The notes beneath the pieces are model-generated. The model saw only the letters and a list, made by a program, of their open reading frames with translations, had not been told where the DNA came from and searched no databases. The position numbers were made by a program, and so were the translations under genes. From Paraflavitalea sp. CAU 1676 (GTDB lineage: Bacteria; Bacteroidota; Bacteroidia; Chitinophagales; Chitinophagaceae), in contig NZ_JARHUJ010000007.1 in the NCBI RefSeq assembly GCF_029223285.1, forward strand, positions 496,001 through 560,000: a stretch of 64,000 nt of DNA. The letters are read 5' to 3'. Of this stretch, positions 28,228 to 28,860 are shown piece by piece (the first letter of the stretch is position 1; the number at the start of each line of letters is the position of its first letter).

Positions 28228-28378
28228 TCCTTGGTGCGACCCACAAAAAAGCTACCCCATAAATCCAAACACAACACCTCTCACTATATACAACACAAAA
28301 CACACCAAAACCTAACCGCCTCGGGCAATATTTATTTTTTACACAACAACAGCTGCCACATTTTGAAACCTCGTTTGC

Positions 28379-28565
28379 CTGATCATTCCCTGATCATTGC
28401 CTGATCGTTCCTTGATGATCGGCTGATAAAGGCCTGATCAAGTCCTGATCACCTTCTGATGCTATTCTGATCAACCTGTGAGTAGGTCCTGAGTACTTCC
28501 CGACCAACTCCCGGGTAACTCCCGGTCAAGTCTTGATAACACTTTGAACGAACCCTGATGCCGAC
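28379..28565. repeat. Seventeen-unit tandem array with exact 11-bp period
   Basis: Cutting the sequence every 11 bases from 28379 gives CTGATCATTCC, CTGATCATTGC, CTGATCGTTCC, TTGATGATCGG, CTGATAAAGGC, CTGATCAAGTC, CTGATCACCTT, CTGATGCTATT, CTGATCAACCT, then weaker GTGAGTAGGTC, CTGAGTACTTC, CCGACCAACTC, CCGGGTAACTC, CCGGTCAAGTC, TTGATAACACT, TTGAACGAACC, CTGATGCCGAC. No insertion or deletion breaks the period over 187 bp. The core is the palindrome TGATCA. TGA stops occur in all frames on both strands, so it is not a coding repeat. The units differ by substitutions only. Confidence 0.9.
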
Positions 28566-28710
28566 CGATCCTTCACCCAATTCCAACTGAATGTACCATT
28601 TTAGGAACGATGTTCCGAAATACGACAAGGTGGCTGTATCAACATCGTAACCTTGCATCAAGCGCTCGTCATGACACCGATTATTCATTCACGTTTAAAA
28701 ACTTAAAATT

Positions 28711-28860
28711 ATGGCACGTCAAAAATATCACCACCGGATCATCGGAACCACCGGCAACATATCCTATCAAATAACAGCCAACGGGTACAAGAAGGACCAC
28801 ACCTCGCCCAACATAAACGCACGGTCATCGAATTGCCCCTGTGCGGGCTCACCCCTTAAC
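28711..28860 (+). pseudogene. Start of a decayed MARQK-type Bacteroidota gene
   Basis: From the ATG at 28711 the frame reads MARQKYHHRIIGTTGNISYQ, then an ITANGYKK segment. This resembles the N-terminus of a small Bacteroidota protein family that begins MARQKG and has GTIGNISFYK and DGY-type motifs. I know it from annotations of uncharacterised, often element-associated genes. After about 35 codons the resemblance fades. Beyond 28860 the frame is only the antisense shadow of the AraC gene. Probably a remnant; a short real gene is possible. Confidence 0.35.

Follow-up and report, generated by a model that had tools for sequence, protein, structure and literature searches.

Arrays with an 11-bp period in Bacteroidota, often upstream of an unannotated gene family, as candidate helically phased operator tracts

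The stretch of DNA analysed here (the window, 64,000 nucleotides, G000:C21:496001-560000) carries an array of 17 direct repeats of 11 bp at positions 28379–28565 (no strand assigned), and related arrays with the same period but other letters were found at many loci, often upstream of A1, an unannotated Bacteroidota gene family of ~250 aa. Directly observed are the period, the existence of a family, the retention of register across the sets that were compared, and promoter-like elements beside some members. The best explanation, which we hold at a probability of about 0.5, casts the array as a cis-regulatory tract, a run of direct-repeat operators set 11 bp, or one helical turn, apart. Along this tract a small sequence-specific DNA-binding protein would bind head-to-tail and cooperatively, with one protomer per 11-bp unit and all protomers on one face of the DNA, and the occupied tract would control a nearby promoter. 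We infer the protein binding, the cooperativity and the regulation from the anatomy of the arrays and from comparison with known systems; phased protein binding was among the roles suggested by the initial annotation, and in this qualified form it remains the best reading. The tract would belong to a large Bacteroidota family, many members of which lie upstream of A1, with a core of its own in each class. A candidate reader is A3, a protein encoded divergently from A1, with A1 itself or an unlinked factor as alternatives, and the window tract, which lies beside an A1 remnant, may be idle.

The division of the array into seventeen consecutive 11-mers was confirmed in the sequence and is far beyond chance. 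Most of units 1–9 carry a CTGATCA-N4 core, and units 10–17 are drifting variants of it. Self-identity at lag 11 across the array is 0.608. When lags of 5–59 were compared over the whole 64 kb, each by its best 176-position stretch, lag 11 at this array ranked first (0.619), followed by lags 22, 44, 55 and 33, all at the same array, with lag 57 elsewhere in sixth place (0.449). The pattern TGATC-N6-TGATC-N6-TGATC, searched with up to three mismatches, had 17 matches in the 64 kb, 16 of them inside the array, against 1.47 expected and a maximum of 5 in shuffles. Because TGA occurs in the array units, a coding function was rejected, the same conclusion as in the initial annotation. No Rfam RNA family matched in the 64-kb window, and a known RNA family was rejected as the identity of the array.

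The genome that contains the window holds two close copies of the array (which we call A), namely B at G000:C17:942103 (locus L013) and C at G000:C17:120 in reverse orientation (L012). The three correspond unit for unit, and their ungapped identities, taken across 16 units, are 0.81, 0.80 and 0.87. Three more arrays with the TG(A/G)TCA core were found, one in the same genome (L186) and two in the genome G003 (L016 and L017), and, with the gap-opening penalty raised, all six arrays from these two Niastella genomes aligned over 16 units free of indels. The flanks of L186, L016 and L017 showed no clear alignment by eye. The earlier description of the units as differing by substitution only stands for the first 15–16 units but fails beyond them, where the window array differs by 10 bp in length from its two closest paralogues. 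The drift ascribed to units 10–17 also needs amending, since units 10–14 are not random and unit variants much like one another occur at the same positions in copies B and C. An insertion with a GAATG repeat of 5 bp seems to interrupt copy C, whose leader resumes at the start of contig C5. Copy B (L013 5965–9199) has on one side a broken gene for a tyrosine recombinase (pieces of Phage_int_SAM_4 and Phage_integrase) and on the other, downstream, an SSB gene.

The TGATCA-type pattern, with up to two mismatches, was present in 2 of 99 genomes, both Niastella, so this core is narrow. The window array contains TGATCA five times and GATC seven times; per 187 bp, GATC occurs 7 times in A, 8 in both B and C, 5 in E, 4 in F, and not at all in D (L186) or in any of five orthologous arrays with a TTTACTT core. 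GATC was therefore rejected as a conserved property, and the emphasis placed on it as a functional unit was not borne out.

Around the array, a block at 28262–28378 (no strand assigned) is partly conserved in alignment with the same-genome paralogues B and C. A leader on the plus strand at 28586–28736 has 73% identity to the start of contig C5 (G000:C5:120-272), and copy B matches it too. The stretches 28644–28776 and 28637–28776 match, at 71–73%, the sequence preceding an intact 251-aa A1 gene in G003 and G002, the gene through which the A1 family was reached; the array before that gene has a CATAT core and again a period of 11 bp. The -7 element of Bacteroidota promoters has the consensus TAnnTTTG. 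A putative -7 element, TAACCTTG, lies on the plus strand at 28648–28655 with one mismatch from this consensus, where L023 and L053 carry TATGTTTG and TACGTTTG, respectively, and is possibly a decayed promoter element. It is followed by an A1-family N-terminal remnant of 26 codons at 28711–28788 on the plus strand, which shares 14 of 26 residues with the intact L053 protein from Niastella. To the left, the nearest gene is a minus-strand TonB-plug/CarbopepD_reg_2 (SusC-like) gene whose start is ~0.8–0.9 kb from the array, and to the right a minus-strand AraC-type gene ends ~0.3 kb away.

The window also contains a second, shorter 11-bp array on the minus strand at 2599–2664, followed by AAATAGCG on that strand. 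This array is nearly identical to the one upstream of the A1 gene at G000:C23:280829 (L046), yet it precedes a SUKH-3 (PF14433) immunity-like gene at 2074–2514 on the minus strand, and so the array module seems to have been copied in front of different genes. A SUKH C-terminal domain was also found in one of the 14 A1-family proteins run against Pfam (L233, E 8.9e-6).

Searched with the A1 query protein, Pfam gave nothing at E up to 1, NCBIfam nothing and PHROGs nothing significant, and the A1 protein of L046 had two NCBIfam matches, both below cut-offs. A fold search returned weak matches, many of them to beta-sandwich proteins (best E 6.2e-3, low TM). A possible resemblance to DUF6266 was not confirmed in Pfam, where A1 had no match. 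A1 matched in 50 of 147 genomes of the bacterial family, with 30, 50, 21, 22 and 18 places in five Niastella genomes, and in at least 582 stretches of the genome collection, from which 80 loci were kept; Flavobacterium, Chryseobacterium, Chitinophaga, Cecembia and Marivirga are among the genera of the listed matches. No relative was confirmed in 61 candidate IMG/VR stretches or in phage records, and one was found in one plasmid record; A1 as a phage gene was rejected on the former result. Across 20 A1 neighbourhoods, no ORF cluster apart from A1 itself was present in more than five.

Upstream of A1, the 11-bp period is widespread. Of 164 upstream regions (170 minus those with identical last 200 bases), 90 had a lag-11 signal above every one of 40 dinucleotide shuffles, where 4.0 would be expected, compared with 60 for lag 22, 31 for lag 10 and at most 24 for every other lag of 6–26. 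For a set of 110 upstream regions that excludes L010, L015, L018 and the window, 11 was the top lag (of 5–29) in 41, 43 and 40 at three window sizes, against at most 5 of 108 downstream control regions. It was also the top lag in 41 of 60 Niastella upstream regions (26 in G000, 17 in G003 and 17 spread over the other three genomes, out of 141 A1 matches). All lag-11 tests were made after the period was known, and the controls are the other lags, the downstream regions and an unselected 1.2 Mb. Over 359 kb, comprising the window and 26 loci (20 of them A1-centred), there were 19 strong lag-11 runs and none at lags 10 or 12 at window 55; each of the two remaining window sizes gave a single lag-10 run. 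The 11 lag-11 runs inside the 20 A1-centred loci have midpoints 88–560 bp from the start of the A1 match (partly extrapolated). The initial annotation had proposed a search for arrays of this period in related genomes, and that search proved positive.

Cores differ from class to class. A weak common core around TAC was nevertheless measurable over 66 arrays, at 3.67 bits; 30 randomisations that permuted the columns inside each unit gave 2.55 ± 0.12, with a maximum of 2.87. Unit numbers also differ between classes, with estimates of 5–24 in these 66 arrays. One array, at L258 4206–4274, was observed ~0.4 kb upstream of an mraZ-like gene (named by reading the protein) that heads a cell-division cluster.

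The unselected 1.2 Mb of G003 held 12 strong lag-11 arrays, compared with none at lag 10 or 13 and two at lag 12. These arrays count against a strict link to A1: 10 of the 12 had no A1 match within 600 bp, the other two belong to one gene, and a strong array was found at only one of the ten A1 matches in this sequence. Taken with the counts at A1 loci, this means that many A1 genes carry an array, and that other arrays stand alone or before other genes. Heptad repeats, which are distinct from the 11-bp arrays, were common in G003:C1 at 7.30–8.10 Mb and 2.14–2.54 Mb, with run counts in the 1.2 Mb of 25, 21, 10 and 7 at lags 7, 14, 21 and 28.

Selection for a spacing near one helical turn, as first suggested from the window array, is supported by the finding that related arrays keep the period with different letters. 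Further support comes from five A1 loci in five Niastella species, apparent orthologues with a TTTACTTnnGG array, in which 23 of 55 array columns are identical without a gap, compared with 8 of 120 columns in the left flank and 23 of 240 in the right. The arrays were already known when these loci were chosen, and the comparison is therefore not blind; neighbours in common were observed at two of the loci, L235 and L252, both of which adjoin the same ribosomal genes (names by reading). The view that the arrays are unlike slippage-made repeats was upheld, with 16 units gap-free in six copies and 55 columns gap-free in five orthologues. Two facts count against rejecting slippage, namely the window copy's change in length by 10 bp beyond unit 15/16 and the class-dependent unit numbers.

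A3 is a small HTH-like protein encoded in 91 of 113 A1 loci (some overlapping), mostly divergently and within ~140–500 bp; its loci (L054–L132, e.g. L114:5613-5810) show the divergent arrangement in many Bacteroidota genera. The predicted structure is a small helical fold (pLDDT 93), HTH/excisionase matches were sub-threshold, and no PDB fold match was significant. Two members searched singly had no Pfam or NCBIfam match above curated cut-offs. In 57 A3–A1 gaps, the motif TAnnTTTG was found 32 times toward A3 (expected 7.4 ± 2.7) and 19 times toward A1 (expected 15.0 ± 4.1), and 22 of the 32 A3-directed motifs lie 62–87 bp from the A3 start. A short array adjoins the A3 start in 10 of 14 gaps inspected by eye and was unseen in L060, L064, L065 and L069; a Flavobacterium A3, for instance, has its own CATACTTTATC array. 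Where A3 is not a plain divergent neighbour (14 loci), an array was present at A1 in nine (L015, L054, L074, L078, L081, L083, L088, L098 and L116), and an 11-bp signal of at least 0.59 was present upstream of A3 in two (L082 and L015), which weakens A3 as the sole owner of the arrays. Niastella genomes have 1–3 A3 matches each, compared with 18–50 A1 matches and many array classes, and A3 had no match in the 64-kb window at E 1e-3. Because arrays often remain with A1 where A3 is elsewhere, a reader other than A3 is possible.

Promoter-like elements were observed on either side of the arrays, which counts against a single regulatory geometry. In Niastella, where the patterns were listed as distinct sites, TTG-N18-22-TAnnTTTG precedes the best array stretch, ending 22–99 bp from it, in L046, L200, L216, L217, L218, L220 and L224; it separates array from gene in L023, L053, L196, L231 and L232, and precedes the array by 438 bp in L211.

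These positions bear on whether the arrays act in DNA or in RNA. Arrays in transcribed 5' leaders could offer their 11-nt repeats as multiple sites for a small RNA or an RNA-binding protein, in concert with hairpins downstream, a proposal that we regard as rather unlikely. It draws on a class of seven loci (L173, L199, L216, L217, L218, L220 and L224) with a leader between array and start codon, five of which (L216, L217, L218, L220 and L224) have the promoter pattern ahead of the array. Predicted hairpins follow the array in these seven sequences, for which RNAalifold gave 22 pairs, 11 with two-sided changes, and a covariance model of the leader (R1) matched 22 places in five Niastella genomes, some of them away from the listed A1 matches, as well as a stand-alone array at L289 (E 0.0056). 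By eye, 8 of the 14 inspected A3–A1 gaps also have the short array between the -7 motif of A3 and the A3 start, with the sense of the core relative to the A3 transcript the same as in the Niastella leader class. On the sequence evidence, some members are therefore probably transcribed, which leaves room for a role in RNA. However, the five loci given above with the promoter pattern between array and gene count against it. For the array class to which the window belongs, the R1 model had only a chance-level match, at one place (L186/L242, E 0.83), and nothing at the window array; 54 loci from other genera yielded a single weak match (E 0.66). Elsewhere in the window, R1 matched weakly at 2555–2608 (E 0.47), on the second array's leader.

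For the window copy only, there is an appreciable, though less than even, chance that the array is an inert relic left after A1 decayed, in a class that was once functional, and this would be compatible with the operator reading. The A1 gene in the window is down to 26 recognisable codons, the promoter-like sequence is degraded by reading, tblastn with an A1 consensus as query detected the gene neither at copies B and C (L013 and L012) nor at L016 and L017, and many arrays stand alone in the 1.2 Mb of G003; against this, six copies keep both register and unit-specific identity over 16 units. Another suggestion is that the period serves intrinsic bending or flexibility of the DNA, for which any repeated 11-mer would suffice. 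Such a role would account for a period kept despite class-specific cores, but it is improbable given that the TTTACTT core is itself conserved over five species in one orthologue group and that 66 arrays share a weak core. We consider it very unlikely that the array is a mobile-element end or attachment region, comparable to the Xis-binding arms at att sites. Excisionases do bind one-turn repeats (PMC7498355), A1 matches are numerous and dispersed, and copy B adjoins the broken recombinase gene with the SSB gene downstream. Yet no ORF cluster accompanies A1 in more than 5 of 20 neighbourhoods, A1 relatives were limited to one plasmid record in the searches of mobile elements described above, and no element boundaries were found for the array itself. 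The earlier suggestion of a replication site or mobile-element end found no support beyond the recombinase gene beside copy B.

If the operator reading holds, Bacteroidota carry widespread helically phased operator tracts that are unnamed in the family libraries searched and tied to A1, a family without a significant Pfam, NCBIfam or PHROGs match, and the 17-unit array would be a direct handle for finding its reader. With a constant pitch and class-specific cores, the arrays would also offer a natural series in which filament spacing is kept as specificity changes. More tentatively, and with the odds against it, the arrays may be chromosomal cassettes, in which a tract of fixed 11-bp pitch is copied before A1, SUKH immunity-like and other genes, its letters diversify with the reader family, and each reader polymerises on its own tract. 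Many insulated regulatory channels would then coexist in one genome. Literature searches on 11-bp direct or tandem repeats in Bacteroidetes, Flavobacterium and bacterial intergenic regions, and on tandem repeats in Niastella, the last judged by titles and opening lines of abstracts, turned up nothing on such arrays.

Several known systems use repeats of this spacing, as described in passages of the cited papers. CarH and CarA bind tandem 11-bp direct repeats on one DNA face (PMC9304148); the repeats are alike, but CarH sites have about three to five of them with TnnACA, the cores here differ by inspection, and nothing here implicates a CarH gene. The PHO boxes of Streptomyces PhoP consist of two 11-nt direct repeat units (PMC7866108), likewise upstream of a gene, and follow one consensus across targets, whereas the arrays here have many class-specific cores and share only a weak one. 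ParR of plasmid R1 needs at least two of the 11-bp direct repeats of parC (PMC9426499), and ten direct repeats flank a promoter there, going by the title of a reference cited in that paper. The repeats are again similar, but parC is a plasmid partition site with parM and parR, whereas the present arrays are chromosomal and multi-copy, and the Pfam matches of the nearest large ORFs, for those ORFs only, were SusD, TonB plug, AraC and sigma-54 activator. A further likeness is to the operators of recombination directionality factors (lambda Xis and phage 186 Apl) and of RdfS and BldC. Phage 186 Apl has five and seven sites at 10–11 bp spacing and represses two promoters (PMC7498355), and RdfS and BldC form winged-HTH oligomers head-to-tail on one-turn direct repeats (PMC11963761). 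Like the arrays here with their 11-bp period, these operators consist of several direct repeats about one helical turn apart, with weak single sites. The present arrays differ in having up to 17 units of 11 bp and a private core per class, and in being dispersed over the chromosome, often with one gene family, rather than belonging to one phage or ICE. One-turn direct repeats with weak single sites mark proteins that bind head-to-tail, such as Apl, RdfS, BldC and CarH and, in other ways, PhoP and ParR; the anatomy of the arrays fits this mode of binding best.
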